From the NCBI GenBank assembly GCA_964036195.1, contig OZ038455.1:15331855-15395854 (forward strand): a stretch of 64,000 nt of DNA, written 5' to 3'. The notes beneath the pieces are model-generated. The model was given only the letters and a program-made list of their open reading frames with translations, searched no databases and was not told the origin of the DNA. The position numbers and the translations under genes are program-made. This document shows, one piece after another, positions 1,559-62,220 of the stretch. How positions within the stretch are numbered: position 1 is the stretch's first letter; each line of letters opens with the position of its first letter. Origin of the DNA: Sphaerolaimus hirsutus (lineage: Eukaryota > Nematoda > Chromadorea > Monhysterida > Sphaerolaimidae).

Positions 1559-1975
1559 TACCGTATTTCCTTGAATAACCTCCACCTCCAATTGACCCCC
1601 TCGAAATAGCCCCAGGTCTGAGGCACCTGAGGAAATCATAAACTTCCCCCGCAAAATACTCAACCCAAATTGAGTATAAAGGGAAAACAAATGACAAACC
1701 GCAGTTTGTGATAAATACATTGGAACAAGAACGCATGTTTAAAACGATGAATGAGTTGTATTAGGAACCTTTTACAGCCATTATATACTTATATACCTGG
1801 TATGTAAATAGACACCTATAAATAGCTGTTATTATTGAATTTTGCTACATCTGAGTGTGTGGAATTTCAAAAAATTCCTGGCGAAAAATACCCCCCCCCC
1901 CTCTCGAATAAGCTCCCCTCGAATTAACCTCTCAAAATTTGCTGGCAAAATGATTCAACCCCCTGGATGTTTTCC
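1559..1975. mobile_element. MITE-1 copy, degraded right end
   Basis: The left end TACCGTATTTCCTTGAATA matches the family terminus. The middle has the family core (TTGAGTATAAAGGG, ACAAACCGCAGTTTGTGAT, then TTCCTGGCGAAAAATA). The right terminus has decayed near CCCCCTGGATG. Confidence 0.7.
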
Positions 1976-2226
1976 AATGAAACATAGTATCATCTATCGC
2001 CAAAAAGCTGAAAACAGGTGAACATGAAGGTGAAAATAAGTGATCTTGACTCTTGAGTGACAATTTGTGCAAAATTTCTAAAAATTATTCATTTAAACGT
2101 TTCTTGGGGAAAAAGTATTTTACTCATGTTTACAAGTAAAAAAATATGTTTATGTTTTCTGTTTGAATATAAATACTTTTCATTTACTTTAGCTTCCAAA
2201 TGTTTTTACATTTTCTTTGCTGCCCT

Positions 2227-4056
2227 TAGCATTCAAAAAATAACCCATGATTTATATTTTCGAAAATCACAATAAATATAAATAACCCGTGATATATATA
2301 TATATTTATATTTTTTCCAAATTCTGAGTGATATATTTATACATATTTTTTTAATTTGAAAAAAAATCACTGAGAAAATCACTCATACTTGATACATTGT
2401 GGTGCAATGATTGCGCTTTATGACTAAAACATGCAATCTGTGCAAGAGAAATTTGCAGGGATTTTCTCCAGAAAATCTCTCTGTTCATGTAGAGCATTAT
2501 TGGGTTAAAATTGTATTTGAAGCAGGTATTTATTGTTAGCCTACACACACTAGTTTTCACCCTGACTTTTTTGAAAACTGAAATGGCCAAAAATGGTGAC
2601 ATGTTTCCATCAAGTTTTCCACTACTGAATGCTATATACCATATTTCCTCGAAATACCTCCTGTTGAGAAATACCCCCCTCAAAATGGGCACTATGAACT
2701 TATAAACCCCCCCCCCCTGTTGCAAAATACGCCCTTAAAATGGGCACTATGAACTTATAACCCCCGCCCTCTTTTAATACCCCACCCTAATTCTGAATAG
2801 CAAACATAATGCAGTTTGTGATCCGTGAAACGCAGAATGTTAAAAACAATGATTGTGTGATGTTAGAACTGGTTATATACTGTTTACATACATAGATAAG
2901 TCCATAGAGTGTTATAAATGGCGGTTTTTGTTGCTTTTTTTATGTTTGTGTACATTTCAAACAACAAGTTAGTAATGGGATTTGAAAAAGTTCTGGCAAA
3001 ATGATAAACCCCCCGCCCTCGAAATACCCCTCTCATTTGACCCCCCTCAAAATTTCCACTCTAAAAAATAAACCCCCCAGGGGGTGATTCGAGGAAATAC
3101 AGTATGTTCAGTTTTCACATATTGCATGAATTTTGGTGGGATGGTGTTGGCAAATCACTAGTTTTATCACAACTCAAACTCAAATGATGGCAAATGGTGA
3201 CATCACTATCAATTAGTTTTCATTTTGTATGTGACAAAAATGTAAACTGTTTTAGCAACTTTTTATTTATGTCATCCTGCTATGTATTCTATGGTTATGT
3301 TTTAGGTATAAAGCATCTCTCTATCTTTTAACATACTTTTCTGAAATAAAACATGACTTTAAATCAAAAAAATTCCAGGTTGATGTGATCAAAAATTTTC
3401 TACAGTGATTGCAAGCTCAGTTTACCATTTTTGAAAACTGATGATGCTTGGTGACATGCAACAATGTTGGCTGTTGTCAAATATTGAGAACAACTGTGGA
3501 AAACTGTCACAATGGTGTCACCAGAGCCACTAGTGTCATCACAATGTTGCCAAAATGTAGCCATGTGCCCAAAAATGAGTTTTCACAGCACATCACCAAT
3601 GAAAAAGTGCTGAGCATGAGCACCTATTTAGTCAACGTCCATTGCCACAACCAGGCGCTATAGGTTGAGAGCTAAATATGTGCAGTGCAAAATATTTTTG
3701 AACTTTTCATTGAGGTTGAACTGAAGGTTGAATTTTTCTGTGATATTTGCTTGGTGTTTTCACTTGTAAGATACTGTATAAATGAATACTGCTTGTGGAA
3801 TGATTATAAATGGACTGTGGTATCTTAGAGTAAATTTTTTGTGCTTGCAAATGGTAAATAAGGCCCAGAATATTGCTTAAAATTGAAATAAAGCGCAAGT
3901 GATTTTTTGAGATTTTTTTTGAGCTGAGAGTTATTTTTTCAGTAATTTAATTATATTTTCTGGAGACCTAGAGTGATTTACATATATGTTTTTTCCAATA
4001 TTGGAGTGATATATTTATATATATTTTCCAAAAAAATGTGATTTTTTTGAATGCTA
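2227..4056. mobile_element. hAT-type non-autonomous element, TSD GCTGCCCT
   Basis: The ends are TAGCATTCAAAAAA and TTTTTTTGAATGCTA, an inverted pair. A perfect 8-bp target duplication, GCTGCCCT, lies at 2219-2226 and 4057-4064. An 8-bp TSD with a TAG-type terminus is diagnostic of the hAT superfamily. The subterminal body reiterates words of the type GAGTGATATATTTATA. A MITE-1 copy is nested at 2637-3104. No transposase is visible. Confidence 0.85.
2637..3104. mobile_element. MITE-1 copy nested in hAT element
   Basis: Inverted termini TACCATATTTCCTCGAAATA and TTCGAGGAAATACAGTA enclose the family core, with runs of the word CTCGAAATACCCC. TA lies on both sides. Confidence 0.8.
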
Positions 4057-4128
4057 GCTGCCCTGCCCTTTAATGTAACAAAACGTAACGGTATTTTGAA
4101 AAAACATAAACATAGGTGTGATGATAAA

Positions 4129-4528
4129 TACCGTATTACCTTAAAATACCCGCAGTGAGTTTATTTTGCAGTGTGGAAATTTTGAGGGGGTATTTCGAGG
4201 GGCTTATTCTTGGGTGCTGTTATTTTCATTTCATGAAATTTTCATTTTCAATTTTCGAGAAATTAACATGAAATGTCATAGTAATTGATAAGGTATTTGC
4301 ATACCCAAAACGTAATAAATGTGACCAAATAGGATTTGTTTTCGGACATATTCTTGATCCTTACACAGACAAATATAAATATGTATAGCCGCGATGTGAA
4401 TTCGCAACAACATTGCATACATGATGTACCTTATTCGAGATTGGGGGTATTTCGAGGGGGGTATTTTTCCCTCAGCTCGCTCAGACATAGGGGGTAATTC
4501 AAGTGGGGTATTTTGAGGAAATACGATA
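4129..4528. mobile_element. MITE-1 copy (variant core)
   Basis: It runs from TACCGTATTACCTTAAAATA to TTTTGAGGAAATACGATA. The core (CATACCCAAAACGTAAT, GACCAAATAGGATTTG) is shared with the copy at 32071-32412 and differs from the common core, so at least two internal sequences travel under the same ends. Confidence 0.75.
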
Positions 4529-4535
4529 ACCGGAA

Positions 4536-4985
4536 TACCGTATTACCTCGAAATACCCCCAGGGGGTTTATTATTTCGCCAGCAAAATTTGAGGGGGGAT
4601 AATTCGAGGGGAGGGTTTATTCGAGGGGGGGGGGTCCATTATTTCGCCAGAAATTTTCGGAAATTCCCCATACGCATAGGTAAAAAAATCGAACAATCAC
4701 ATAGATTTATATGTGTTTATAGGCATATATTACTGTATATACACAAAAACCCTTCCCTAACGTCACTTAATCATTGTGTTCGTCACTTAATCGTCACTTT
4801 TTACGTGTATCTGCATAGTGCAGATCACAAACTGCGGTATTTGTCATGTACGTTCACGTTACACTCAATTTTAGGGGGGTATTTCGAGGGGGGGGGGGTT
4901 TATTATTTCCTCAGCCGAAATTTAGGGGGGGTATTTCGAGGGGGGGGTTAATTCAATGGGGGGGATAATTCGAGGTAATACGGTA
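4536..4985. mobile_element. MITE-1 copy
   Basis: It runs from TACCGTATTACCTCGAAATA to TAATTCGAGGTAATACGGTA. It lies only a few bases from the preceding copy. It is close in sequence to the copy at 29891-30321. Confidence 0.85.
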
Positions 4986-5548: not shown

Positions 5549-7871
5549 TAGTGATGGAAAAGCGCCATGGCGCTGGCGCCTGGCGCTAGCGCCAAAGCAA
5601 AAAAGCGCCATGGCGCTTTTGGCGCTTGGCGCTAAAATGCTCTGGCGCCATTGGCGCCGGGATCTGAGAAAGCGCCATGGCGCTTTTGGCGCTTGGCGCC
5701 ATTTTCTTGTGGCGCTATTGGCGCCTGGCGCCAGCATGTTTAATGGCGCCAAAAAAGCGCCAACAATAATTATAAAACTTTTTATAATACAGATAAATCG
5801 ACACTCTATTGATCGATTACTTAAGAGATGCTTACATTTCGATAATGAGAAAACGTTTTTTGTTTCCTCAAAAATGTACCCGGTTACACATTTATCAACT
5901 TCCAAATGTTGATAACGGCAACAAGAATTTAAGAAAATATCATTTTATGTTGCTTCCAAATGCGCTGCCAACAATGCATGCTCAATTGATTTGCGCGCTG
6001 TCTAAATATTGGAACGTTTATAATGCTTAATAAAGTGTAATTTTTTGTATAAGCTTATAAAGCCCCTGCTTTCGACGTCATTATGTTTATTCTACCACTG
6101 ACCTATCCACAACAGGCATTTTGACTGGGACCAGATAGCATCCAGAAAGAAGTCCAGTAAACAAGTGCACATACAGACTTCTTGAGCCTGATAAAATTTT
6201 TGTTCCAAGCCCCTGTGAAATTTGCATTTGATTTCTGTGTACACCCTAAAATCTTAAAGTGTTACCTATGTTGTTCAAAATTGCTCAACATTTAGTCACA
6301 ATTCCATCTTTTTATCCCCTTGAAATAAATACACCCAGGTCTGAGTGAGCTGGGAAATTTACCCTAACGTAACGCAGTCAAACAATGACTGAGTTACGTT
6401 AGGACAGGTCTTATAAAATAGTATAAACACCTTCCCGGTCACGTCCGGCAGCCACTTTTTGATTTTACTTCTTATATCCTATCCCCAGTTCTAGGGCGCC
6501 CCCGAGGCTGAAACTTGGGGGAGATATTGTCGCAACCCCCCTCTACGTCGCATGAATTGGGGGGGTCGCGGCGACCCCTCTCAGGGGGGTCGCCCTAACT
6601 GCAATTATTTTTGTGGCTTTTTTGGTGTCCCACAGCCGGTCCGGCACCCGCTGATTTCTGAGCTGTGGGAGGGGTATAAATCTAAAATTTTGGGGATGTG
6701 TTACCAACACCACTCTACTACTATACACTATTCAATAATGTGAGATTAATGTGAAAAATTTCTCAAAAATTCGCTTATTACCTAAAAAACACCACTCCCC
6801 AATAGATGGATGACAAAAAATTTACTTTTTGGAACTTTTTTATTAGACACTTGAAGAGCTGGTTTACGATACTTTAGAGGGAAGGGTTTAATTTATCAAG
6901 TTATGTAAAGAACCATACCTCTAAAATGCCTGCATTGCAAAATTTACTTAGGGCGAATTTTATTACATCATAATGACATCATCGCAGGAACAAAAATTTA
7001 CAAAATTTACACTTTGAAATTCCCCCCAAGTAAATTTTGCAATGCAGGCATTTTAGAGGTATGGTTCTTTACATAACTTGAAAGATCAAACCATTCCTTT
7101 TAAAGCATTGTAAACCAGCTCTTCAAGTGTCTAATAAAAAAGTTCCAAAAAGTGAATTTTTTTGTCATCCATCTATTGGGGAGTGGTGTTTTTTAGAGAA
7201 GAAGCGAATTTTTGAGAAATTTTTCACAATAATCTCACATTATTGAATAGTGTATAGTAGGGGAGTGGTGTTAGTAACACATCCCCAAAATTTTAGATTT
7301 ATACCCCTCCCACAGCTCAGTAAACAGCGGGTGCCGGACCTGCTGTGGGACACCAAAAAGCCACAAAAAATTTGCACTTAGGGCGACCCACCCTGACAGG
7401 GGTCGCCGCGACCCCCCCCCCAATTCATGCAAAGTAGAGGGGGGTTGCGCCAATATCTACCCCAAGTTTCAGCCTCGGGGGCGCCGTAGAACTGGTGATA
7501 GGATATAAGAACTAAAATAAAAAAATGGCTGCCGGACGTGACCGGGAAGGTGTTTATGTATATTTTGTCGCTTATAATTACGTTTCTGTTGTCATAGCAT
7601 CTTTCTACGTCTGAATCAGGGGTCTGCAGGACTTTGATCTTCTCGAGGGTTGGGTCGATAGCAAATCACACCTCTCCAGGCATAATTAGGTGAAAAATCT
7701 GTTTGGGCCACCGGGCTGCATAATATTTACAAAAGGCGTTTTGACTTTGGCGCCATTGGCGCTTGCCGCCATAATCTCCTGGCGCCATTGGCGCTTGGCG
7801 CCGTGTTCCCGAAAAGCGCCATGGCGCTTTTGGCGCTTGGCGCTAAAAGCCTGGCGCTTTTTCCATCACTA
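5549..7871. mobile_element. hAT-type GCGCC element, TSD GTCAAGAG
   Basis: The termini TAGTGATGGAAAAGCGCC and GGCGCTTTTTCCATCACTA are inverted repeats flanked by a perfect 8-bp duplication GTCAAGAG (5541-5548, 7872-7879). Both subterminal zones (about 5560-5765 and 7745-7865) are filled with overlapping AGCGCCATGGCGCTTTTGGC words. The centre holds AT-rich sequence and the fold-back element at 6423-7557. A second member sits in intron 1 of the second cuticlin gene (31539-32738). No intact transposase was recognised. Confidence 0.88.
6423..7557. mobile_element. Fold-back element A (long inverted repeat), nested
   Basis: The two halves are inverted copies almost from end to end: AACACCTTCCCGGTCACG on the left pairs with CGTGACCGGGAAGGTGTT on the right. 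The subterminal landmarks GAGGCTGAAACTTGGGG and GGTCGCGGCGACCCC appear in both arms. TA lies just outside AACACC on the left and GGTGTT on the right. Each arm consists of modules of about 200 bp, also seen at 28404-29868 and 54770-59443. Confidence 0.8.
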
Positions 7872-8843: not shown

Positions 8844-10078
8844 ACAGCTGTTAAAAGGTATTTACGTTCACTCGATAAATACGTGTACTCGGGTACTGCC
8901 TAAATACGTTTACTCACTTACTCGTGTACTTTTTGAAAGTACGTGAGTACAGAAAACGTAACTATCTCAGGTAGCCTTTTTCAAGTGATAATGGGAAAAA
9001 GATAGCAAAAACCTCAAATTAGGGGAAATTATCAAAAATAGCTAACAAAATCGGCAAATTAACACATAAACAAGTGAATTTAAGGGTGATAACGTTTGGA
9101 AAATAGTGGTTTTGAGCACATATTGGGGCAAAATTTCTCAAAAATACACACTTTAACATTCTCTGGGAACAAAAGTAATATAGTCACGTTCAGGGTTGGC
9201 AAAATCCCAGAAAAAAAATAAAAATAAAATAGAAAATTGGAGAATAAAATAAAATAAAATAAAATGGAAAATTTATAAAATAAAAATACAATTTTACTAA
9301 AATTCAAATTTTAGTAAATTTTTACAAAAACTTGAGTGTCTGCAAAATTCTATCAAAGGTTTTCTATCATGTTGCTTAAGATTATAGCTGCCAATTTGAA
9401 GAACTGGTGCATTATTGTTGTTTTCATTGTTGCGATTGAAAAATATTTTTGCTCAAAGTTGCAAATTTTCACTGCAAATTTTCAAATTTTGCCCATTTTC
9501 TTTGCTCCATATCTTGAAAAAGCCTATGTACTGAACCCTGCAAACCCTCCCCGCCCCCCAAAATACAAATCGCAAACATACAAATTTTTTGCTATCTTCC
9601 CTCAGGAGGAGCAATTAGCTACACATCTATCAGGCCCCTGTGACGGTCATCCCCTGTTAGCTACATACCTATGTCGCAACCCGTGTCAGGTCTACCTACA
9701 TTAAAAAATTTTGTATTCATCTTCATGCTTCTAGTGTGCACGTTGTTTTATGGCCTTGCAACCAAGATACCGATTTTTTGTAAAATTTTTGTAAAATATT
9801 TGTAAAAGTTTTGTAAAATGGTTTCATTTTATTTTATAAATGACATTCAGAATAAAATAAAATATAAAAAAATGAAACATGAATAAAATAAAATACAATT
9901 TTAATAAAAATAAAATACAATTTTAGTAAAAATTTTTTTACTAAAACCAACCATGCACGTTTACCCATAAGTAAAAGTAACAAAATACTTTACGTTTTCT
10001 GTACTCAGCGGTGAGTAAAAATAAATACTTGACAGTTATGTTTACTTTCAAAAATGTTCAGTACTTTTAACAACTCTG
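8844..10078. mobile_element. hAT-c family element with nested AAAATA hAT
   Basis: The left end CAGCTGTTAAAAGG and the right end CTTTTAACAACTCTG are inverted family termini. The body repeats TACTCGTGTACT and TACGTTTACTC words. A clear TSD is not visible here (AGCTTGCA against GAAACTTC), but the family shows 8-bp TSDs at 44211-44955. Confidence 0.65.
9191..9953. mobile_element. hAT-type element with AAAATAAAAT body
   Basis: The ends are CAGGGTTGGCAAAATCC and TTTACTAAAACCAACCA. The flanks GTCACGTT (left) and TGCACGTT (right) form an imperfect 8-bp duplication. Both subterminal zones are reiterations of AAAATAAAATA. It is nested in the preceding element, at nearly the same internal position where a different hAT sits in the second cuticlin gene. 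Confidence 0.6.
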
Positions 10079-14023: not shown

Positions 14024-15258
14024 TAACGATGGCAAAAAAAGATTCGAAAATTCGAAAACATTTTCGAATTTTCGAATTTTTCCGGAATTTTCGAATTTTT
14101 ATTTCACCCCTAGAAAAAACACTTAAAAATCGATTTATTTTTCAAAAAATTCGAAAATTCGAAAATTCAAAAATTCGAAAATACTTTTCGAATTTTTCAG
14201 GCAATTCAAGGCACTCTTAAGTTCAACGTACTAAATACAATGAAAATTGATACGCGGTGCTTATGAAAAAGCGAAACAAAACCGAAAAAAGGTCCAAAAA
14301 CGTTGAAATGTAAACTGCCCCATAAAATGTGAAATGTCATGCAAAGTGTCAACAGTTATGAAAATGCCCTGGAAAAATGGCAAACATATTTGCCATTTTC
14401 CACAGCATTTCCATGACTTTAGACACTTTGCATAACATTTGACATTTCACAGAGCATTTTACAGGTGTCTGGGACTGCACATATTTATAAGTAAAAGAGA
14501 TGTGATCAAAGATATACTCCAGCGACATTACACTTTATAATGAAACCTAGCATATCCCATCTGAATGAAAGAACAAACATAAAATTTTGTCATCATATTA
14601 ATCAAATTGCTTTGATAAATATGATGAAAATTTTTTTGTTTGTTCTTTTATTCAGATGGGTTATGGTAGATTTCATTGTAGGTGTAATGTCGCTGGAGTA
14701 TAAGAGTGGTTTTGAGTATTGGTTTGAGAAGTACCATATTTCGTGCAGTTAGCACTGTAAGCACTGAGTACGCTCAGTGTGCTATACTCGGGCGAAATTA
14801 CACCCTACATTTTTCTGGTGGTAACACTCCATCATGACGTCATAACCGCAGTCCGCAGTGAACTTACGGCTGACTGAACTGGTTCGGAGTCAGGATGAAA
14901 TGGAGTGCAGTGGTGAATCAGTTCACAAGTTTTCAGTTGGCTGTCTGCCAGCCAAAGATATAAATCATATCTATTTGTAGATTAGCACGTCTGCCGAGTA
15001 TAGCCACTTCCAAAACAGTCCAAATTCTGTGTTTAAAGCTTCAGATTCAATATTTTTCCAAAAAAATTCGAAAATTATTTGAAAAAATTCGAAAAATGGC
15101 CAAAAAAATTCGAAAATTGCCAAAAAAGATTCGAAAATTCGAAAATTAAATTCGAAATTCGAAAATTAATTTCAGGAAAAATTCGAAAATTCGAAAATTC
15201 ATTTGGGAAAAAACACTTAAAAATTTAAATATTTTTTTTGGAGGGTTTGCCATCGTTA
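14024..15258. mobile_element. hAT-type TTCGAAAA element, TSD GTCTATAG
   Basis: The ends TAACGATGGCAAA and TTTGCCATCGTTA are inverted. The 8-bp TSD GTCTATAG is perfect (14016-14023, 15259-15266). The body near both ends is a chain of GATTCGAAAATTCGAAAA words, and a MITE-S copy lies inside (14513-14702). The paralogous site at 35039-35060 reads GAGTCTATAGAGTC without the insert, so this copy arrived after the cuticlin locus was duplicated, or was precisely lost from the other. Confidence 0.92.
14513..14702. mobile_element. MITE-S relative inside hAT element
   Basis: Inverted ends TATACTCCAGCGACATTACA and TGTAATGTCGCTGGAGTATA enclose CCCATCTGAATGAAAGAAC and its complement. It is a diverged member of the MITE-S family. 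Confidence 0.7.
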
Positions 15259-15541: not shown

Positions 15542-16609
15542 TACCGTATTTCCTCGAAATACCCCCGGGGGGTTTATTGTATCAGAGTGAGAATTTTGAG
15601 GGGGGGTTAAACGAGGGGGGGGGTATTTCGAGGGGGGGGGTTTATTATTTCGCCAGAAATTTTTTGAAATCCCAGTACTAAAATGTCGTCTGAAACGTAC
15701 GCAGACGTCGAAAAATGCGACAAAAATCGCCATTTATAAGACTCTAAAGACATTTATAAGTGTGTAGACGTACAAACACTGTTCTCACATAACAGAGTCA
15801 TCGTTTTTAACGTGTGTTCTGCACAACGATGGAAAAAACACAGAAATTGAACACAGAAACTCATTGAGTTTCTGTGTTTTTGTTTTACACAGAAACACGG
15901 AAACTCATAAATTTTGAAAAACTCAAAACTCAAATGAGTTTTTTTTTGGAGAACACAGAAACACAGAAACACGGAAACACAAGATAATAATAATAATAAG
16001 ATAAGCATCTATAGTATGTAAATATGTACATAATGTATTCATATTTTATAATGGTACAAAGAAGAAATTAAAGATGGCATGCACATCTCATGGTGGATTT
16101 GACAATTTAAGTTTCGACATTTAAGTATACCTTATTACCTTGAATACCCCCCCCTTGAATTAACTCCCCTCAAAATGGACTGGTGAAATATCCAGATCGA
16201 AATGCTGTAAATCAAAATTTGGGGGGGGGGAAACTCAAATTTTTTGGAAAAAACTTGAGTTTTTTTGAAAAAAACTCGAGTTTTTTTGAAAAAACTCAAA
16301 TAACTCGAGTTTTTACAAAAAACACAGAAATAAAAACAGAGTTACTCAATTTTTTTACAAGAAAAAAACTCAAAACACAGGTATTCATTTTTGAAAAACT
16401 CAAAACACAGAAAGTGTTTTTTTTCGTTGGTTCTGCATTGTCGGGATGACAAACCGCAGCCTTTGTCATTTACGTTATCTATACACTAAATTTGGGGGGG
16501 GGGTATTTCGAGGGGGGGGGTTTATAAGTTCATAGTGTCCATTTTGAGGGGGGGTATTTCGAGGGGGGGGGGGTATTTCGAGGGGGGGGTATTTCGAGGA
16601 AATACGGTA
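15542..16609. mobile_element. MITE-1 copy split by a second hAT insertion
   Basis: It runs from TACCGTATTTCCTCGAAATA to TTTCGAGGAAATACGGTA. Without the 606-bp insert it would be about 450 bp and collinear, in inverse orientation, with the full copy at 60846-61298. Confidence 0.88.
15824..16429. mobile_element. hAT-type ACACAGAAAC element, TSD GTTCTGCA
   Basis: The ends are CAACGATGGAAAA and TTTTTTTTCGTTG, with a perfect 8-bp TSD GTTCTGCA (15816-15823, 16430-16437). The body reiterates ACACAGAAACAC and AAACTCAAA words. A piece of a MITE-1-like sequence is nested around 16130-16230. Confidence 0.9.
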
Positions 16610-17138
16610 GTTTCATTCCGTATATGCGTAAGCACGAGTCACCAAAACAGAGTTCTACGGGTTGGATACAGCGTGCATGATATGACATCATGCGGATTAG
16701 CACCCTTTTCGGCCGCGCCATTTCGGCCGTGGACATTTCGGCCGCGCCGTTTCGGCCGGAGGACACTTCGGACGTGGCCATTTCGGCCGTGGACAGCTCG
16801 GCCGCGAGCCATTTTGGACGTGGACATTTCGGCCGCAAAAATATATATGTGGCAACATAATCCCTCACGCGTGTGGCAACGGTAATGAACTCGAACAGAC
16901 GCACAAACAAAAAATATGCCACAGCACACTGCACTTGACTATGCGGCAAGCTTTAATATGCCAGACGCAATTAAGTTTCAACCTGGGCATGCACGCAATT
17001 TGAGTATGGCATCTAAATCAAAGGGCGCGGTGTGGATTATTCCCATGGATCGCCCATGCTTGTGTTTGCATTTTGTATCAATAGAAAAGTTCGCTGGCCT
17101 TCACATATTCATTTGGTCTTCATTGTCATCAATTTGAA

Positions 17139-19734: not shown

Positions 19735-20525
19735 GTGCACATTTATATTATTTTTTAAATTATTTAAAAATTTTATCTGATTTGGTGACTATTCTGTTGG
19801 TTATTTATTATGTTGTTAAAAATGAGAGTGAATGCTTGTATTTAGGTAAATTTTTATGGTGTATTTGGGTAAATATTTACAGTGTGTTTACATAAACACG
19901 TGTGGTAATTATGTATATGAATATTATAGGGGTTATCTTTTACATCGTTGAAAAATGACATTGAACTGCTTATATTTAGATAAGTATTTGTGGTGCATTA
20001 AGGTAAATATTTATGGTGAATTTGGGTAAATATTTACAGTGTATTTATGTAAATATGTATGGTATTTATGGCTTACCTAACAGCGAGAAAATTCGTTAAT
20101 AAATAGATTATCTAACAGTTTGCTGCTTACACAAATAAACAATGCAACACAAATAATAAACACCCTACATGATTGATTGGATTCCTCGCTGCAACACCTG
20201 TTCCTATAAAAAACACAATGCAACACAATTACCTAACAAACTACATCGTCTGGAGCGCCTGTTACTACCCCATCAATGTGTCATAAATATTTATGAGCGT
20301 CAAGTGTCCATTACCAATGTGCCGCATATATATTTTTGCGGCCGAAATGTCCACGTCCAAAATGGCTCGCGGCCGAGCTGTCCACGGCCGAAATGGCCAC
20401 GTCCGAAGTGTCCTCCGGCCGAAACGGCGCGGCCGAAATGTCCACGGCCGAAATGGCGCGGCCGAAATGGGCCCCTACCCATCATGCGACTCATTGTATA
20501 GTATCATGTCTGCCGACTATACACG

Positions 20526-40527: not shown

Positions 40528-41408
40528 TGAAAAAATCCTCGAATAACTCCCCCTCTCGCACAACCCCCCCTCTCGATTAAGTCCCCCCTCTTGTGAATGT
40601 GAGGAAACAACAACTCCCCCCCTCGAATAACTCCCCCCCACTTTGATGGATAGAAACATTTCACATTTACAAATACGTTTTATGTATTTAATATGTAAAT
40701 ATATGTAATATCTTGCAGCTAGAGTTCACTAACATTGTTTTCACTGCTTGAATTGTAAATTTTGTATTCCTACAAATCATTTACCGTAAATTTTCTAATT
40801 CGGCGACAGTATTCCAATAATACGACATATCCAATAGTGCGACAGGTTTGGACACGTTGTGTGAGAATAACGCGACACTCTCCAATAGTATGACACTCTT
40901 CAATAGTGCGACACCTGAGAAAAAAAATGAAAAACAACGTAACGATGTCGCAATCTGCGGAAGCCGCGGATTCTGCGCTTTTGGTTCACAAGAGTTGCTG
41001 GGCAGTTCGCAAGAGCGCCAGCCGCGTCACAACCGCCACTATTTACCATGTTTATTGCTTTACTATGTCATGCTCACGTTTGAGTTATGTGGACAGTGAC
41101 GTTGTTGATTTGATGAAAAATATAATATGACACTCTCTATTAATGTGACATCTCCAATAGTACGACACCTAAAAATGTGCTGAAAAAAATAATACGACTG
41201 TCGGATTATTAGAGAATTTACGGTATGTTACCAAATTTACCCAAGTTGTGCAATAAATTTATCATACATTTTACTGGAAATACTGATGAAAAAATAACTC
41301 CCTCCCCCCTCGAATCACTCCCCCCTCGCGAATAACCCCCCCCCCCCCCCTCAAAAACTTCTGACAAAAAAATAACTCCCCGGGGGACTTATTCGAGGAT
41401 ATACGGTA
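40528..41408. mobile_element. MITE-2 copy split by MITE-4
   Basis: It begins near AAATCCTCGAATAACTCCCC and ends ATTCGAGGATATACGGTA. It is collinear with 27987-28405 except for the insert at 40784-41223. Confidence 0.8.
40784..41223. mobile_element. MITE-4, CCGTAAATT ends, TSD TA
   Basis: Left CCGTAAATTTTCTAATTCGG and right ATTATTAGAGAATTTACGG are inverted ends between two TA dinucleotides. The empty relative at about 28242-28255 reads AAATCATTTATGTTAC. The body repeats CCAATAGTGCGACAC and variants. A 73-codon open frame inside has no recognisable homology. Confidence 0.88.
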
Positions 41409-44700: not shown

Positions 44701-44980
44701 GTTTCATAAAAGACCGTAAAGGGTGAAATAATGCATGAAAATGATAAATAAATTGATCTAAAGGTGAGAACAGCGGTGTTTTCTAATGCTCAACAGTGAG
44801 AGCTCTTTCTAAAAAAAACTTTTTTACACTTACACTTTTTTTACACTTTATTAGGTATTTTTAAAATACCTTACACTTTTGGTATCCATACTAAAAATTT
44901 GGAAAGTGTATTTACACTTACACTTTCCAAAAATACCGGTATTTTAACAACTCTGGTTCTTAGGGAAATCGAGTCTTAAG
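41729..44980. mobile_element. Large family-E palindrome with TTAA-flanked ends
   Basis: The left end TTAAGACTCGGTTCGCGTAA pairs with the right end GAAATCGAGTCTTAA. Arms of about 1.1-1.2 kb meet near 42.8 kb (TAGCTGGCC, GGCCAGCTA). Each arm contains two tandem family-E modules with GTAGGAAGATGA or its inverse. A hAT is inserted in the right arm (44211-44955). TTAA at both extremities is compatible with a piggyBac-type target, but this is weak evidence. Confidence 0.7.
44211..44955. mobile_element. hAT-c element with TACACTTACACTT body, TSD GTTCTNAG
   Basis: The ends are CAGAGTTGCGAAAGTG and TATTTTAACAACTCTG. The flanks GTTCTCAG (44203-44210) and GTTCTTAG (44956-44963) are an 8-bp duplication with one change. 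The uninserted phrase CATGTTTGGTTCTTAGGG occurs near 30388 and 45217. It defines the termini and TSD length of the hAT-c family. Confidence 0.87.
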
Positions 44981-47894: not shown

Positions 47895-48251
47895 TACCCC
47901 AAATCCTCGAATAAGACCCCAGGGGAGTTATTTTTTCGTCAGAAAACTTGGACTCGAATCATTGCAGATACAGCCTGTCAACTAATGTTATTCAGGTATT
48001 AAACTGTACACAGCAACAAAACGTTGTGTAAATATAAGCTGCATTCACATCATGTATTTATCTGCTGTCGCTGCCGTTGGCTAATATTTTTATGTATTTT
48101 GTATTGTATCCTTTTCATACACATGGGGAGTTATTCAGGAGGGGGAGTTATTCAAGGGGGGAGTTATTTTTTCCTCACCTCGCCAACAGGGGGGAGTTAT
48201 TCAAGGGGGGAGTTATTCGAGGGGGGGGGTCTTATTCGAGGATTTGCGGTA
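47895..48251. mobile_element. MITE-2 copy
   Basis: It runs from AAATCCTCGAATAAGACCCC to TTATTCGAGGATTTGCGGTA. The right half repeats GGGGAGTTATTCAAGG. The extreme left terminus is eroded. Confidence 0.75.
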
Positions 48252-49513: not shown

Positions 49514-51139
49514 CATCAAAGATATGTTTTCTCTCCTGATCAGTATTTCTTAGGATAATGTTTTATCAATCAATCAAATAGGTTTACTTGACTCAGACCA
49601 CAAAAGCCAAATGCAAGTAAAATACACACTGCATACCCAACGACTACTCCTAGTTGCGGTCCTAATAGGTGAGTTTTGTCGCGCCTTTAAACACAGGTGG
49701 TGATGGGAAATAACGAGAAAAACACCTAAACTACTTACAACCCTACAGCAAAGCAAGCGGCAGACAACATTGCCAGTAACACCGAAGAATAAAACACTCT
49801 AGTACCCCACGATCCGGGTTTGACTGCTCCGAAAAGAAATGAAAACGTATTTGAGCAAAATAATGTGATTTATGATTTATGACAATTTATGATTGTCACT
49901 TTCTGCTTGGAAAAATGACATTTTCTGTCCCCTTAAATAACGTTTTCTGTACTCGCGTACTTTCAAAAAGTGAGTACCGGTATTTGGCAGTTCAGTCTGA
50001 TAAACGGTGAAGTGATTTTTGTTATTTTATGTGTGCGCCGTGGAGATAACAGATGAAGTTGAGCATTGAGAAAACAAATCTCAAACAAACAAACAAAACA
50101 AAACTCCATCAGTCATCAGATAAGTACACTAGACTCGGCACTCGCACCACTCGCCCATCGACCCCAGCATAGTTGTTAAAACGTATTTACATTTACTCAA
50201 TAAATACGTTTACGTTTCCTCCCGAAAAAAATACCGGTATTAACATACTCGCGTACTTTTTGAAAGTAAACGAGTACAGAAAACGTATTTTAAGGGGACA
50301 GAAAATGTCATCTTCCATATTTACATACATACTTACATATTTCCTAAGAAATACTTATCAGGAGAGAAAAACACACATCTTTGATGTATTGCAGAGTAAA
50401 AATTGGAAAAAAACACCTGAGTTGTTAGAATAACTGAACTTTTTTTAAAGTATATGTAAATGTAAAGTATTTTTATTTTACTCATCACAAAGTATAGAAA
50501 ACGTAAAATACTTTTTTTTTACTTGTACGTACGCGTAAAAGTGGGTACTTTTCTTGTGAGTGTAGAAACGACTACTTTTCGTCATAGAATATGTAAAAAG
50601 GGCACTTTTGCATACGTGTACAGCTGTTTATGTATGTTTCTCTATAGGCAAATGATAGATACAATAGTTTTCAAGGTCTCTCTATTCTAGGAGATAAAAA
50701 TCGTCGCGACTCGTTTCCACTTCTATTGTCTCCACAACCATTTCGATTTGGTGACTATTTTTTTTTAAAGGCACTACCCCCGTGTATCAATAAACCTATA
50801 TATTTCTGATTGAACTGCACGCAAAGTATGCCACATGTAAAGTATGCCCAATGCAAAAGATAGGAGGCGCGAAGTTCATAGGGTCATTGTACCCGATTTG
50901 TGAATGATTTCACACAGAATGCGGACACTTTCAATTTGCACGTGCATCCTGTGAATAAAGGTAGATTCGTAACAGCTTCGAAAGTTACACGCTACGTTAC
51001 ACACTACACGCTACAGCCGTGACCTACTAACTCACTTGCTTTCTACTGTCTGGATTTTGCTCGTGGATTTAGCAAAATTGATGCTCGCCATAGTCAAGGC
51101 ATGCAATCTTGGGTAATGTTTACCGAACCCCCCCCCCCC
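49514..51139. other. Intergenic stretch with hAT-c fragments
   Basis: 49514-49560 is inverted at about 50338-50395 (ATCAGGAGAGAAAA, CATCTTTGATGTA). hAT-c words (GTACTCGCGTACTTTC, GTTGTTAAAACGTATTTAC) occur at 49935-50010 and 50168-50290, and another start, GAGTTGTTAGAATAACTGAA, lies at 50423. From 50650 to 51130 I recognise nothing. Confidence 0.5.
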
Positions 51140-51724
51140 TAGGGTTGGGAATTTCAAAATTTTTGGTTCCGGTTCTCGGTTCCAAAAGATTTTGGTTCGG
51201 GTATCGGTTCTCGGTTCCTGAAAATTTTCGGTTCCGGTTCTCGGTTCGCTTCTTAAACTCGGTTCCGGTTCGGTTCTCAAATGATCAAAATTTCGATTCC
51301 GGGTCATAAAATAACCGAGTATCGGGTAATAATCGGCTGAACAATAGAAAAACAATATACAAGACGGGTAATAATCTGCTGAACAATAGAAAAACAATAT
51401 AAATACAAGACAAACAATAACGTTTACATGTGTAAGTACATTGGTTGGAATCATTTTGCAAACAGATGAATTTTGCAATTCTGAACATGCACCAAGATGT
51501 TCAGCTGCTGTTTAAAGGCTTAGATGTAGGTGTTGACAAAACGCTGTTTAAAAACTTCAAGATTCCTAGAAAATTTCGGTTCTTTTGGGTATTTACTTCG
51601 GTTCCGGGTATAAGTGCCGGTTCTCAGTTCCGGTTCGGTTCTCAAGGTTGGTTCCGGTTCTCGGTTCTCGGTTCCAAAATAGTGCTCAGTTCTTGGTTCG
51701 GTTCGGTTCGGTTCCCCAACCCTA
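51140..51724. mobile_element. hAT-type GGTTCCGGTTCTC element in a C run
   Basis: The ends are TAGGGTTGGGAATTTC and TTCGGTTCCCCAACCCTA. It is flanked on both sides by runs of C, so the 8-bp TSD would be CCCCCCCC and cannot be proved. The body is a chain of GGTTCCGGTTCTCGGTTCC words on both sides of a short AT-rich centre. Confidence 0.7.
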
Positions 51725-53165
51725 CCCCCCCCCCTATTTGGACCCCTGAAAGGTGGGGTAGATATTTTGGCTCCAAAAAGCTGAAACGGAAAATGGAAAG
51801 TTGACACTAAATAATTCCATTATCGGCTGTCATTCCTGCACCCTGTAAAATGTCAAGTGTCATGCATAGTGTGAAAAGTCATCTAAAGTGCCCCGTAAAA
51901 TGTCAAACATCTGATAAAAAATAAAAGTAAGGGCATTTTACAGGGTCCAAGAGTTTTACCGTGTTCTGTCTACACACGCCACCCAACGAGGAATCGGGCG
52001 CGCAGCACATTGTGGGGAAGAATGTGACTGTGGTCATCAATACAGGTGCTGAAGATTGAACATTGTGAAAATGTGGTCAATTGAACATTATGCCAATTGA
52101 ACATTATGCGAGTATTAAAACTGTTTCTTATTGGCCAATAGAAATCTTTATTAGTCTCGACTCGATAATCACAGACATAAATATTCATGTGAACTGTGTA
52201 TGCAGTCATGTGACATTCAAGTAGAAAGTTGATGGAATTTTTCGTTCTGTTGTCGAGCAGTCTAGTAAAGGGGGTTGAGGTTATTTCCCCCTTTGAACTC
52301 TCCAGCTATTGAACCCTTTGAACTCTGTGAACTCTCCCTGTGGGTTCACTTCCCCACCCCAAAAAAGTGCCCAACTCTATCCATCTATCCAGCAGTAGAG
52401 ATGGACAAACATTGTTTTTTTTCAACGACCCCAGTTTAAAAAACGGTTTGATGCTTGCGTTTTTTTAAACAACATTTTTTATTCAAAAATCGGTTTGATG
52501 CTTGCGTTTTTTTAAACAAGGTTTTTTATTTAAAAAACAGTTTGATGCTTGCATTTTTTATTTTTTTATTTTTAAGAATGTTTTTTATTTCTAAGAAACC
52601 GGAGATGATTTTTTGGTACCATCCCCTGGACCCCCCCCCCCCCCCCGCCCAAAACAAAAATTTTTTGGAGGTATTTTTGAGAAATTTTGCCCCTATATCC
52701 AATTCAATTTCACTCACCTTCTAAACCTTGAAAAGCCGATCTATTGAAACCCTGTAACCCCAAAAAACGTTTTTAGTATTTATGCTCTGGAGGAGCAATT
52801 TACTATCTATACGAACCTCTGTGGGGGTCCAAATCCACAAGACTACTGCTGCTGTCACTTGCCTATAAATTGGGGGTGCTGATGTTTGTGTAGATGGGCA
52901 TAGGGATGGAAAACATGTTGTTTTTTCAATGACCCCATTTTTCAAACTTCAGACAAGTGGCAGTACTTTATAATGCTATGTAAATAGCAGTAGAATTACT
53001 GTGGAGCCATCAGTGATCCGATAAGCATAATAAGTATTGATTTCTACCAAAGAATAAATTGTTATATCAACTTGTTACATATATATATATATATATATAT
53101 CGCCACTCATCAATTGTTCATGACTTGAAGTGAAGTTGGGCATGGAATAGTGCTTACATAATGTT
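51725..53165. other. Intergenic stretch with simple repeats
   Basis: There are fragments with TAGAGATGGACAAAC and repeated CGGTTTGATGCTTGCG (52395-52560), reminiscent of a hAT body, and a pure (TA)11 tract at 53079-53100. At 52245-52340 TTTGAACTCT words repeat. No gene is recognised. Confidence 0.5.
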
Positions 53166-54188
53166 ACTAGCAGGATTCTCTCCGACCTTCGGTCAGGTTT
53201 ATCATGTTTTACTATACTTTAACAAATACTAATGGACACTTGTTACCACATCAATTATGAATCTCTTTGAAAATAAAGCCCGCGGGGTCCACCATCTAAT
53301 CATTTGCCAGTTTTTCCCATTGCTTTCTATTTCAGCCTATGGTAATGTAGTGTCAAAACTGGTGCATTATCTATGCCACATAATAAGACGCCATTATTCG
53401 AAATATTGTAAGCACAAGGGGTTCTTTTTAAAATTTATGGTAATGTAGTGAAACAATGCAGTGCAAATTACCATCAGCAATATCTGAAACCCCTGTAGTC
53501 ACTGTATCAAAAAACCCACATGGATCATGTCATGATTTGTCATTTGGTATTGTTATTGTTTGTATTGTTGGTACATTACATATTGCTTTTCTAAAAACAT
53601 GACTAGCATGCGGGCAAGCTGAACTATAAGATATGGAAGTTGAAAGTGGAGGTATAGAAGTCCAAAGTCAATAAAGCACTCAATTCTTTTCCATCTAACC
53701 CATACAGGGCCCGTGGTTGTATATCTTATAGTTCAGCTTGCCTGCATGCTAGCCATGTTTTAGAAAAGCAATATGTAATGTACCAACAATACAAACAATA
53801 ACAATACCAAATGACAAATCATGACATGATCCATGTGGGTTTTTTGATACAGTGACTACAGGGGTTTCTGATATTGCTGATGGTAATTTGCACTGCATCG
53901 TGTCACTACATTACCATAAATTTTAAAAAGAACCCCTTGTGCTTACAATATTTCAAATAATGGGGTCTTATTATGTGGTGTAGATAATGCACCAGTTTTG
54001 ACACGACATTACCATAGGCCGAAATAGACAGCAATGGGAAAAACTGGCAAATAATTAGATGGTGGACCCCGCGGGCTTTATTTTCAAAGGGATTCATAAT
54101 TGATGTGGCAACAAGTGTCCATTAGTATTTGTTTAAGTATAGTAAAACATTATAAACCCGACCGAAGGTCGGAGAGAATCCTGCTAGT
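53166..54188. mobile_element. Fold-back element D, near-perfect 1-kb palindrome
   Basis: ACTAGCAGGATTCTCTCCGA on the left matches the inverse at the right. The arms (each about 450 bp) mirror one another, including CCGCGGGGTCCACCATCTAA and ATTATGAATCTCTTTGAAAA. The ends equal those of the element at 21608-22056, and GGTAATGTAGTGTCAAAA links it to the 116-bp satellite. Confidence 0.88.
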
Positions 54189-54189
54189 C

Positions 54190-54769
54190 TTTAATATTCA
54201 ACGGAACCATTTCTGTAAATACACAGCAGTGTAGTCACTTTATAAATATGTCCCACATTTTTTGAATTTTCTGAAAACATTTTACGTACGCGTGCGTACG
54301 CTTTGAAAATGTACGCTTTGCATTTTTCTACCTCAGCGTAAATACATTACAAACAACGAATGTGTACTGTACCAAAAAATTCTGGCGAAATAATAACCCC
54401 CCTAAAAATACCCACCCTTGTTTACAAAATTTCCACTATGAGCACATTGCAGTGTAGTCACCTTATAAATATGTCCCACATTGAATTCACAGAAATACAT
54501 TTTCTTTACGCGTATGCTTCAAAAATGTACGCGTACATGTGCGTACGGTATTTTTTTTTTTAAAGTATATGTAAATGTATTTACCGCGTACTCGCGTACA
54601 CGTATTTTTTGAGTAAACGTACATACATTTTAACAACTTTGAAAAACACAACAATTTTTGTTTTTTTGTGAAAAATACTCACTTTTACGTTTTCTGTGAG
54701 AAAAAATACATATTTTTACGTTTTCCTTGAAAAAATACTCTATTTTTACGTTTTCTCTGGCAAAAAAGT
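54190..54769. other. MITE-1 and hAT-c fragments
   Basis: A MITE-1 fragment lies near 54365-54430 (TTCTGGCGAAATAATAACCC). hAT-c words follow (GTACGCGTACATGTGCGTAC, CATTTTAACAACTTTG, TACTCTATTTTTACGTTTTC). No gene is recognised. Confidence 0.55.
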
Positions 54770-55272: not shown

Positions 55273-56373
55273 TAGCATTGAAAAAATCTCTGGGAGATTT
55301 ATATTTAAAAAATCTCAGAAAATCTCAGAAAATATAAGATTTTCTGAGATTTATATTTTTTCCATGATTTTTCAGAGAGATTTAATTATATTTTCTCCTG
55401 ATTGAGAAAATCTCTGGAGAAAATCTCTGTATATTTGCCCATTTTCACCTTTAAATTCACTAATTCATGTGCTTTTTTACCAACTTTCATCTTTTTGAAC
55501 TTTATGTTTGCTTATATACCCATTTTTGGCTATTTTCCCCCTATTTGTAGTTTTCCTCCCCTTTTTCTGTTCTATGGCATGAAAGAGCCAACAAAAAAGT
55601 TATCTGAAATACATTTTCTGTACTCAAGTACTTTCAAGAAGTATACATAAAAGAGAGTACTGGTACTTTTTCAAAGGAAATTTAGATGTATTTACTTAGT
55701 ACTCAAGTATATGTATTTTTGAGTAAATGTAAATATGTTTCAACCCATGAACCATACTGAACAACTGCAGTCCCATGAAGTTCCCCGGTGCTCAAGTACA
55801 GGGCTGTACCTCAGCACCGGGTCTACATTGGCACTGGATGTTACTGCTTGTGTAATGGGTAAACTTATGTACTGGATTCTAGCTCTTTTAACAACCAAAC
55901 AGTTGACATCATTCTTTGGAAATATAGTTACCCAATTTTGGTGAAAAAATCATCTGATAAATTCTGTGGGGATCATCACCTGTAAAAGTAATGTAAACAT
56001 TCTACTATGAGGACAAACATGCCTAAACCATATTTTTGTTCATTATTCAGATAGTAAATACATGGGTAGTACAAAGTGTGTCATCAGTAGACAATATGCT
56101 GTTTTCATATGAAATTGAGAATGAAGAGGTTAGACAACACATTATGTGCTTTATATCTACTCTTAATGGTTCAAACACCTTGAAATATCGATTAAATAAT
56201 ACTTTAAGTTGAGAGATTTTATGAGATTTTTTGAACTGCAAGAGATTTTCTCAAAGATTTAATTATATTTTCGAAAATGACCCAAGAGATTTAATTATAT
56301 TTTTTTCTTGAGAGATTTTTTGAGATAATATTCAATTATATTTTCTCAAAATTGGTCGTTTTTTTCAATGCTA
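55273..56373. mobile_element. hAT-type AAAATCTCTGAGAAA element, TSD ACCATGGA
   Basis: The ends TAGCATTGAAAAAATCTC and GTTTTTTTCAATGCTA are inverted and close to those at 2227-4056. The TSD ACCATGGA is perfect (55265-55272, 56374-56381). The subterminal zones repeat AGAAAATCTC and TTTAATTATATTTTCTC. A hAT-c fragment is nested around 55605-55742. Confidence 0.9.
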
Positions 56374-60761: not shown

Positions 60762-60845
60762 AATATAGAAAGAAGACAGCAAATATCAATAGCGATTTCG
60801 AACAAGCAACAAGTTGGAGGTTACCACAAATGCTTACTTGATGCA

Positions 60846-61298
60846 TACCGTATTTCCTCGAAATACCCCCCCCCCTCGAAATACCCCCCCCCCTCGAAAT
60901 ACCCCCCCTCAAAATGGACACTATGAACTTATAAACCCCCCCCTCGAAATACCCCCCCCCCAAATTTAGTGTATAGGGAACGTAAATGACAAAGGCTGTG
61001 GTTTGTCATCCCGACAATGCAGAATACACGTTAAAAACGATGACTCTGTTATGTGAGAACAGTGTTTGTACGTCTACACACTTATAAATGTCTTTAGAGT
61101 CTTATAAATGGCGATTTTTGTTGCATTTTTCGACGTCTGCGTACGTTTCAGACTACATTTTAGTACTGGGATTTCAAAACATTTCTGGCGAAATAATAAA
61201 CCCCCCCTCGAAATACCCCCCCCCCTCGTTTAACCCCCCCTCAAAATTCTCACTCTGAAACAATAAACCCCCCGGGGGTATTTCGAGGAAATACGGTA
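60846..61298. mobile_element. MITE-1, best full-length copy
   Basis: 453 bp from TACCGTATTTCCTCGAAATA to TTTCGAGGAAATACGGTA. It contains four or more copies of CTCGAAATACCCCCC near the left end, the TATAGGGAACGTAAATGACA core, and TTCTGGCGAAATAATAAACC near the right. It is the uninterrupted inverse of 15542-16609. Confidence 0.9.
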
Positions 61299-61470
61299 GT
61301 TAAGTACACCATAAAATCTTTGTGATATTTTTACATTCCATTCCCGTATTACCGCCAACTGATTTTGGTACTTTTTTATGCCGCCTCATCAAAGTATGAT
61401 TGCACCAGACGCATCCAGACATATTTATACACTACAATCATTGTTGATTTCATTTGATTTTATACATAGG

Positions 61471-61664
61471 TATACTCGTCGTACAGCACACCTAGTATGG
61501 AAACCTACCATAATGTGATGAATAAAATCTTGTGATAAATTTCGTAATTAATCATTCCATACTAAAAACGAAATATTATGATGTGAAAACTGTATAATTT
61601 TTGGTTCATTATTCAGGTGGGTTATGATAGGTTTTCATACTAAGTGTCATGTCCGCCGAGTATA
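61471..61664. mobile_element. MITE-S, best full-length copy
   Basis: It runs from TATACTCGTCGTACAGC to GTCATGTCCGCCGAGTATA with the inner inverted pair GTATGGAAACCTACCATAAT and GTTATGATAGGTTTTCATAC. Confidence 0.82.
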
Positions 61665-61819
61665 AAGCTGATCAGAACATTTGTTTTGGTAAAATACAAT
61701 GTTGACAATGGCAATGGTTGCACAAAGATAACAGACCACAGAATATAGAGCTGTGGTCACTGCTTGGGTGACTCGATGACGTGCATACAATAACAGTTGT
61801 GAATGTTACAGATGTAAAA

Positions 61820-62220
61820 TACCGTATTTCTTCGATTTTATTGACCGCCAATGTATTGTTTCATAAGCCATTTTGGGGGGCAATGTAAACGAGCATGGCA
61901 AAGTGAATGAGCATGGCAATATATATTCCACATTGTATTTATCATGTGCATTTCTCAATTAAATATGAATGTGGGATAAGTATAATGAAAACAACACTTT
62001 GCGTTTATCATAAATTAGGTAAATATTCGTAGTAGTAGAGTTGTCAGACTACTTGAAGCAGCAAACATAAAGTTATGAATAGGATAACGCAACATCTATA
62101 TTTTCATACGCCAATGTATTCGAACATGGCAATGTATTTTTCGGATGCCCTACAGACCCGGCAATGTAAACGAGCAAGGCAATGTAAATGAACAGTCAAT
62201 AAAATCGAAGAAATACGGTA
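61820..62220. mobile_element. MITE-3, CCGTATTTCTTCGATTTT ends
   Basis: Perfect inverted ends TACCGTATTTCTTCGATTTT and AAAATCGAAGAAATACGGTA with TA outside. The body reiterates GGCAATGTAAACGAGC and AACATGGCAATGTA words. A single copy is in the window. Confidence 0.88.

Follow-up and report, generated by a model that had tools for sequence, protein, structure and literature searches.

Short words in the ends of hAT and MULE transposons of Sphaerolaimus hirsutus change as sets between sister families

The transposons in a 64-kb window of the Sphaerolaimus hirsutus genome (G000:C7:15331855-15395854; GC 40.4%; genome of 348 Mb in 762 contigs) carry short words that are reiterated at their ends, and the words differ from family to family. 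The elements concerned are hAT transposons, a Mutator-like element (MULE) and miniature inverted-repeat transposable elements (MITEs) flanked by TA. Comparison of the window with its relatives elsewhere in the genome makes it highly probable that the words form selected arrays of family-specific transposase-binding sites. In some sister families nearly all the words have changed together, which suggests putative docking sites that evolve in step with the transposase of the family. Subterminal binding arrays are themselves already known; what looks new is the rewriting of an array as a set, with its frame kept, in two superfamilies of one genome.

Results

Words of sister hAT families differ as sets

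Three sets of CAGAGTTG-tipped hAT elements can be aligned over both of their ends. At the 12 cleanly aligned word sites, set 1 reads AACGTA and set 2 reads AGCGTA, gaps aside, and the element of the window at 44211..44955 (target-site duplication, TSD, GTTCTCAG/GTTCTTAG) reads AGTGTA at 11 of 11 sites, with one gap. This element, with the word AGTGTAA (given as TACACTT in an earlier note made from the sequence of the window), represents the GT class of the three recoded sister families. The remaining word bases are unchanged in the three set comparisons (47/47, 44/44 and 44/44), and the spacers are 72% (199/277), 71% (183/259) and 81% (211/261) identical; word sites with gaps or with fewer than three matching rows were omitted from this count. 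When degenerate words in the outer 165 bp of the 11 aligned ends are included, 76 of 81 belong to the class of their own copy.

The same uniformity is seen across the genome. A degenerate pattern for one end gave 4,366 exact matches (control 0), and among the matches listed the two words of that end are of the same class in 91/100, with 32.7 expected if they were independent. The pattern for the other end gave 3,330 matches (control 0), with its three words alike in 88/100 among the matches listed. Elements seen at both ends, again among the matches listed, have all five words alike in 55/65 cases (21 AACGTA, 17 AGCGTA and 17 AGTGTA). The matches listed are the first ones on contig C1 and not a random sample, and the ends were paired by distance and strand, such that a few pairs may be wrong. 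Ends of mixed class, with AGTGTA and AGCGTA together, are found at G000:C1:816282, 2411530, 2786535, 4041821 and 8895429; they are possible recoding intermediates or recombinants.

A weaker sister pair lies within the window. The hAT element at 55273..56373 (word AAAATCTC, TSD ACCATGGA, terminal inverted repeat, TIR, TAGCATTGAAAAA) has AATCTC 13 times and AATCAC not at all, and the sister hAT at 2227..4056 (TSD GCTGCCCT, TIR TAGCATTCAAAAA), absent from the earlier note, has mostly AATCAC (six times, against one AATCTC). Recoding is found at only 4/5 homologous word sites of this pair, and its spacers align poorly (143/260). The alignment of the AGCGCCA and CCGGTGCC families is too poor for counting.

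Arrays of the FLYWCH MULE and its relatives

The Phantom-type MULE of the window (16696..20480, + strand) presents exons for a FLYWCH finger (E=2.1e-7) and for a weak MULE catalytic domain (16.9 bits, under the cut-off of 27.6, from a single exon), and is bounded by a 9-bp TSD (ATCATGCGG/ATCATGCGA, 8/9 identical). Its 152-nt arms are 99% complementary: the left array (16703..16854, + strand) consists of nine units of ~15 bp on GGCCG (TTTCGGCCGTGGACA), and the right array (20320..20471, - strand) is its mirror image. The CGGCCG word of the window belongs to this MULE, whose last 7 bp on the + strand are CCTACCC. A genome search with PF10551 found one MULE elsewhere and did not match the one in the window.

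Ten FLYWCH MULE relatives fall by eye into three FLYWCH types, with the ~15-bp repeats TTTCGGCCGTGGACA, GGCCGCGGACACGAA and ATTGGCCGCGGACAA, and the type-specific repeat is present at both ends in the eight copies read at both ends. The type labels explain the repeat flanks (0.67 for the same type, 0.34 for another; 2/2000 label permutations). Repeats of equal rank are homologous between types 1 and 3, the 3' flank scoring 0.66 at the same rank and 0.37 at other ranks (1/2000 permutations); bases -1 and -3 differ at 8/9 ranks, and the bases of the GGCCG core differ each at 0-3/9. This comparison covers the seven of ten arrays that have nine units (thus without C2b, C13 and C9b) and contrasts clade 1 with clade 3. 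Wholesale turnover of the arrays is disfavoured by it, since turnover would have erased rank. Identity of the FLYWCH finger to that of the window copy is below that of the matched part of exon 5 in 7/7 paired relatives (64-86% vs 80-93%). The arrays also gain and lose units: the left array has 11 in C13 and 7 in C9b (a type 2 copy with mostly GTCCG cores), and C1 has ~15 on the right against 8.6 on the left.

Arrays are subterminal

A shuffle test that presupposes no word was applied to the element ends. Repeated 8-mers exceed 200/200 dinucleotide shuffles in 20/20 ends (180 bp) of ten hAT copies in the window, and likewise at both ends of the MULE. The hAT interiors are mostly near background, with two exceptions, the middle of 51140-51724 (28 pairs) and one inner stretch of 2227-4056 (18 pairs). 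For the TA-flanked copies, the observed value for exact 8-mers was reached by at most 2/200 shuffles in 9/22 ends, and the other 13/22 are not clearly above the shuffles, degenerate words being missed by exact matching; with mismatches allowed, 11/11 copies stand above 300/300 shuffles, in a count whose words were picked from the same ends. Genome-wide, TTCGAAAATTCGAAAA has 6,611 matches against 2 for the pattern read backwards, and TACCGTATTTCCTCGAAATACCCCC has 20,433 against 0 for the reversed control. The shuffles and these counts together bear out the family-specific reiterated words that the earlier note had placed in the window. Two of the words quoted in that note, GGCGCCATGGCGC and CCAATAGTGCGACAC, have zero exact copies in the window, where near variants such as AGCGCCATGGCGCT are present.

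Description of the element bodies as made of these words, or completely filled by them, does not hold. In 27 hAT copies (nine from the window and 18 from the genome), the terminal 200-bp stretches contain 559 matches to 11 words in 10.8 kb (51.8/kb) and the interiors 56 in 21.6 kb (2.6/kb), a contrast that is partly circular as the words were picked from the same ends. The domain-bearing locus L025 was excluded from this count and from the orientation count below, as it resembles L024 on the same contig. In 11 TA copies, 55/55 word matches lie within 130 bp of an end. The arrays are thus subterminal, in the outer 150-200 bp of each element, and the elements are not filled. Against a neutral simulation, words are better conserved than spacers in 6/9 pairs (<=1/60 simulations), the pairs sharing copies.

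The two ends are mostly unlike

For orientation, the 7-mers of the two ends were compared after removal of the outer 25 bp (18 in TA copies). Direct matches exceed inverted ones in 23/30 hAT copies (11/12 word families, one nearly tied at 85:83). The exception is the TTCGAAAA family, in which inverted exceed direct matches in 7/8 copies, perhaps since its core is palindromic. All 11 TA copies have more direct than inverted matches (mean 34.9 vs 0.5), and the MULE arrays are purely mirrored (0 direct vs 272 inverted). Most of the tested hAT and TA elements therefore have inverted tips but one-way arrays, with two ends unlike each other. One-way arrays speak against the making of one end by copying the other, as copying would give a mirror image. 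The idea of the word as a usual continuation of the terminal repeat fits hAT loosely: the first word, in or after the TIR, begins at nt 11-50 counted from the left tip and at nt 12-63 counted from the right one. In TA copies the terminal copy is itself a word, but at one end it is opposite to the bulk of the others in 9/11.

hAT families of the window and their transposase

Two copies of the AGCGCCA family are present in the window, one at 5549..7871 with AGCGCCA / GGCGCC at both ends (TSD GTCAAGAG, TIR TAGTGATGGAAAA) and one at 31539..32738 (TSD TTCATGAG/CTCATGAG). The TTCGAAAA family also has two, at 14024..15258 (TSD GTCTATAG, TIR TAACGATGGCAAA) and at 35961..37138 (flanks GCACGGGC/CACGGGGC). 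Further hAT elements have the word ACACAGAAA (15824..16429, TSD GTTCTGCA on both sides; end taken as 16431 in counts) and the words GGTTCTCGG/GGTTCCGG (51140..51724, TIR TAGGGTTGGGAA, TSD a run of C). A hAT-like element with the word AAAATAAAAT (9191..9955; end taken as 9956 in counts) is nested in a CAGAGTTG-type hAT at about 8843-10078, and a degenerate CAGAGTTGTTAAAA-type hAT (50417..54641) is flanked on both sides by AAAAACAC. The 8-bp TSD is exact at 2227, 5549, 14024 and 55273, has one mismatch at 31539 and 44211, and is imperfect at 35961 and 9191. The TIRs are short, related and start with [CT]A, for example TAACGATGGCAAA, TAGTGATGGAAAA, CAACGATGGAAAA, TAGCATTGAAAAA, CAGAGTTGTTAAAA and TAGGGTTGGGAA. 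The hAT words of the window thus belong to sibling families with related TIRs and 8-bp TSDs, and cannot be called words of unrelated families. Elements were accepted on TIR and TSD, recurrence and hand reading. An automatic TIR/TSD caller was too noisy without hand checking (30 calls vs 24-42 with displaced TSDs), and its filter for palindromic TSDs lost the elements at 31539 and 55273, both of which are listed elsewhere in the analysis.

A search of the genome for the hAT dimerisation domain gave 28 matches, 19 of them inside elements bounded by TIR and TSD and nine not resolved (TSD exact at 17 loci, with one mismatch at 2, none resolved at 9). By word, the 19 bounded elements are nine AAACGGAA, seven TTCGAAAA (loci L021, L022, L024-L026, L032 and L034, relatives of the window copies), two CAGAGTTG-type and one ATATCGAA, so that the domain-bearing word families are TTCGAAAA, AAACGGAA, AAACGTAA/CAGAGTTG and ATATCGAA. 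L024 and L025 lie on one small contig and look like duplicates. Among the 28 loci there is no bounded domain copy for the words AGCGCCA, CCGGTGCC, ACACAGAAA, AAAATCTC, GGTTCTC, AAAATAAAAT and TACACTT; these families are filed as hAT by TIR and TSD, and TACACTT also by its alignment to the AAACGTAA family. At 22/28 loci the domain is flanked on either side by a repeat-rich stretch no more than 700 bp away, compared with 62/304 stretches of the window. The presence of some repeat-rich stretch, at 27/28 loci, was discarded as uninformative because 95/102 window stretches have one too. Order and spacing of the words are alike among copies of the TTCGAAAA and AAACGGAA families.

One of the 19 bounded elements is a full-length hAT at C3:40743-46748, with the TSD CCTTGGCG on both sides and a dimerisation domain at E=4.9e-17. 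Its ends are like those of the degenerate element at 50417..54641: window 54444-54641 matches the right 198 bp at 86.9% identity, and window 50419-50701 matches the left end at 75.1%.

Nested transposons were seen at two of the loci. At L030, a CCGGTGCC-word hAT (322-2361) holds a AAACGGAA hAT at 980-2108, and at L036 a stretch at about 21-2354, flanked by arrays of the window MULE word, holds another AAACGGAA hAT at 1020-2101. A zf-BED search of the genome gave eight matches, mostly from one gene cluster; six zf-BED exons lie within 23 kb at G000:C1:7466186-7488779, possibly a cluster of hAT-derived host genes.

TA-flanked MITEs

Three TA-flanked MITEs have one TIR type: that at 60846..61298 (TIR TACCGTATTTCCTCGAAATACCCC, word CCTCGAAATACCCC, the words on one strand except the right terminal one), that at 40782..41225 (word CCAATAGTGCGACA with mismatches) and that at 61820..62220 (word GGCAATGTAAACGAGC). 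Another at 47895..48251 has the word CCTCGAATAACTCCCC. The MITE at 25989..26413 is accompanied by further copies at 2637-3104, 4129-4528, 4536-4985, 29891-30321, 34843-35248 and 60382-60761. These copies have TA at both ends and a common tip, TACCGTA or near variants, with words that differ; here too, families described earlier as unrelated have their tip in common. Fish are known to have TA elements in which repeated words accompany tips like CCGTATTT.

The TA copies are not filed to a superfamily (Tc1/mariner-IS630 and pogo were considered). PF03184 gave zero matches in the genome and also zero in control genomes. PF13358 gave 23 genome matches, and in the six loci read with 1.5-kb flanks there is no TACCGTA pair around the domain; nor is there one in the four PF13359 loci read. 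One exact TA end was also sought in viral contigs, with no match. The DDE_3 loci L041-L045 also carry inverted repeats around the domain. DDE_Tnp_4 (Harbinger-like) elements occur at at least 163 places in the genome, such as L054-L057, many with near-identical scores and likely from a recent burst; the left ends of L054 and L056 are GGCCCCACGCACACTAGTTTACTGGC with AGTTTACTGGC repeated.

Other features of the window

Four cuticlin-type genes lie in the window (about 10756-13212, 30766-34250, 45620-47631 and 62784-64000, the last of them a minus-strand gene truncated at the window end). CUT_N and CUT_C domains were found in the one that was scanned, and such domains suggest an ecdysozoan host, perhaps a nematode. 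The exons of the four are near-identical and the surrounding transposons differ, pointing to recent duplication or conversion. Two tRNA-Arg(TCT)-like genes (41472-41543 and 45029-45100) sit within longer repeats with common flanks, perhaps a tRNA-derived short interspersed element. Long inverted repeats with arms of 235-431 nt that are 83-96% complementary occupy 53166-54188, 48588-49518, 42314-43310, 28538-29722 and 6607-7371, and satellite-like tandem arrays with units of 27, 116, 466 and 54 bp occupy 22082-25450 and 26412-27460.

Discussion

Comparison with known transposons provides a frame for the arrays. Maize Ac/Ds resembles the hAT elements here in its 8-bp TSD, its short TIR and a short word repeated in the outer ~200 bp, a word that in Ac/Ds binds the transposase (PMC3260210). 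Ac transposase binds subterminal AAACGG (PMC3260210), and AAACGGAA, the word of the commonest domain-bearing family, contains AAACGG and goes with the TIR TAGGGTGTCAAC. Unlike Ac/Ds, the elements here are in an animal host and form many sibling families, each with a different word, with 8-14 words per 200-bp end in AAACGGAA copies. The BED domain of Hermes binds subterminal AAG(T/C), its sites start just inside the TIR and are asymmetric between the ends, as here, and end asymmetry is reported as an important requirement for activity (PMC10368747). Hermes differs in its 4-bp motif, in having fewer sites near the tip and in the doubted role of its inner sites, and the available text describes no recoded sister families (PMC10368747). 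On the protein side, the motifs of four out of four measured hAT-encoded proteins match their own subterminal regions, and related BED/Hermes-type domains of CGGBP-type hAT N-terminal proteins prefer different 8-mers (CGG, GCGC or AT-rich) (PMC8097297). That work covers proteins of many species (PMC8097297), and the present one covers the DNA of one genome.

The window MULE is similar to Muta1 and Tm1 in its FLYWCH finger, its 8-9-bp TSD and its long TIR with 12-15-bp tandem repeats (PMC5225508, PMC3169594). Tm1 has the end motif CCTACCC (PMC3169594), which equals the last 7 bp of the window MULE on the + strand. Unlike Muta1 and Tm1, the window MULE has sister relatives of three types that combine their FLYWCH domains with different words. 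Galileo, of the P superfamily, has multiple THAP binding sites per end in tandem-repeat TIRs; it differs in superfamily, in its direct binding data and in its long inverted repeats (PMC3688188). Binding across its subfamilies ranged from none (N) through weaker (K) to significant (D. ananassae), and the tandem repeats of Foldback and Phantom were called untested as binding sites (PMC3688188). Convergence across superfamilies has been proposed (PMC3573991). Taken by analogy, the biochemistry of hAT and Galileo and the structure of Muta1/Tm1 make it likely that the arrays are transposase docking sites. Different words in related elements are not new, as the CACTA element Jozin of Chenopodium carries a 12-bp subterminal motif in ~20 copies, and this motif varies in sequence between related elements (PMC8978399). 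In Jozin the motif differences are between species, and the available text describes no site-by-site recoding (PMC8978399). We found no paper describing site-by-site parallel recoding in the literature searched, which left out most subscription journals.

Selection for many binding sites, one of the causes proposed in the earlier note, is supported by the location of the words at the ends, by the dimerisation domains inside elements of four word families, by the full-length hAT, with a probable but weak BED finger, that has its ends in common with a window element, and by joint recoding in sister hAT families and in MULEs with different FLYWCH domains. The transposase would bind the words; the outermost tip would be recognised by a common catalytic machinery, and the array would supply affinity and family specificity. 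Only elements with a matching word would then be moved efficiently. If the preference of a transposase shifted, selection for mobility would rewrite the sites in the elements that follow it, non-autonomous ones included, and families would separate within one genome. We favour, with moderate confidence, this separation by recoding of a shared address, in which nearly every word at both ends is rewritten in parallel after a change of transposase specificity. The steps AACGTA, AGCGTA and AGTGTA, with rare mixed copies, would then be preserved among thousands of copies, and recoding would have occurred independently in hAT and MULE elements. One-way words, which make the ends unlike in most hAT and all tested TA copies, may help to pair one left with one right end. 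The arrays may first have grown by local duplication.

Several observations weigh against this interpretation. The transposase of the TA lineage was not found in genome searches with PF03184, PF13358 and PF13359, and elements of the GC and GT classes showed no transposase. In the full-length hAT, the BED finger, the one such finger found in any word-bearing element, scores 19.7 bits against a curated cut-off of 20.6 (E=9.1e-4), over two exon frames joined at a guessed splice point; its arrays are weaker than those of short copies (38 direct and 27 inverted 7-mer matches), and its left end is under every repeat threshold. In 3/9 pairs, which share copies, the neutral simulation has words no better conserved than spacers. 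Among the words of the aligned hAT ends 5/81 are of another class, and at one uncounted gapped site the AACGTA-set copy L052 has AGCGTA. The type 2 MULE arrays are mixed, with TTGT-like flanks in the outer units and CGAA-like in the inner ones. FLYWCH type and word follow one phylogeny and are not independent, so that their match is an association and not proof of binding. Hermes itself speaks in part against the role proposed: a donor with its putative left-end BED sites mutated retained ~70% activity, binding of extra transposases inside the ends was called unlikely, and restored site asymmetry near the tip failed to rescue an element with two left ends (PMC10368747).

A common mutational process, such as slippage, unequal exchange or gap-repair copying of ends, could amplify the ends in every superfamily and leave the words as by-products. 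Longer tandem units are indeed present (74 bp, 92% alike, at 31591-31728; 21 and 42 bp at 15058-15157; 31 bp in the MULE), array lengths differ among the MULE copies C13, C9b and C1, and hAT, TA and MULE elements all have arrays, as do, judged by eye, two DDE_Tnp_4 loci with AGTTTACTGGC. We nevertheless regard this explanation as unlikely. The 12 clean hAT sites were recoded while the spacers stayed alignable, MULE repeats hold their rank identity between types 1 and 3, and mirror symmetry between the arrays is absent from most hAT and TA elements; word order and spacing are alike among TTCGAAAA and among AAACGGAA copies, and the interiors of the same elements have few words. Slippage or gap repair, which the earlier note had offered as a possible common cause, therefore does not account for the pattern, as homologous words change together with spacers and rank kept, and mirror-image arrays are clear, among the elements tested, only in the MULE. 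The part of the proposal that stands is that such events may have founded or lengthened arrays, as the units of 21, 31, 42 and 74 bp and the varying MULE lengths would allow; slippage does not set the word. Whatever sets the word acts on the sites jointly, and the simplest such agent is selection for fit to the transposase.

Two further explanations carry far less weight. That the arrays bind a host protein (a silencer, insulator or transcription factor) through which the copies spread is very improbable: the six clustered zf-BED exons at C1:7.466-7.489 Mb could encode hAT-derived host proteins, but the words are family-specific and in the MULE go with the FLYWCH type of the element itself, and three kinds of element would require separate host partners. 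Biased mutation without selection, for example CpG deamination, is the least probable source of the differences in word among sister families. The step from GC to GT turns CG into TG, the GT copy is poor in CpG (4 and 1 in its two ends vs 13-14 and 8 in GC copies), and stray words in AC copies are mostly ATGT among the matches listed, all of which deamination would give. The change is, however, on the word strand at 11/11 sites and never CG to CA, oppositely oriented words included, and the GT copy retains CpGs at 9, 31 and 40, outside words, as L029 does. No word CpG is lost in the AC-to-GC step, in the AATCTC/AATCAC pair or in the -1/-3 changes of the MULE, where the core CG stays.

Arrays of transposase-binding sites rewritten as sets would address the question of why the transposon families of one genome differ in their subterminal repeats, and may explain how MITE families co-reside in a genome without moving each other. 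This genome offers natural experiments on the matter, with alignable sisters that differ in their word as a set, thousands of copies, and MULEs that carry both a DNA-binding domain and an array. It thereby becomes directly testable how a protein co-evolves with some ten to thirty DNA sites per element.

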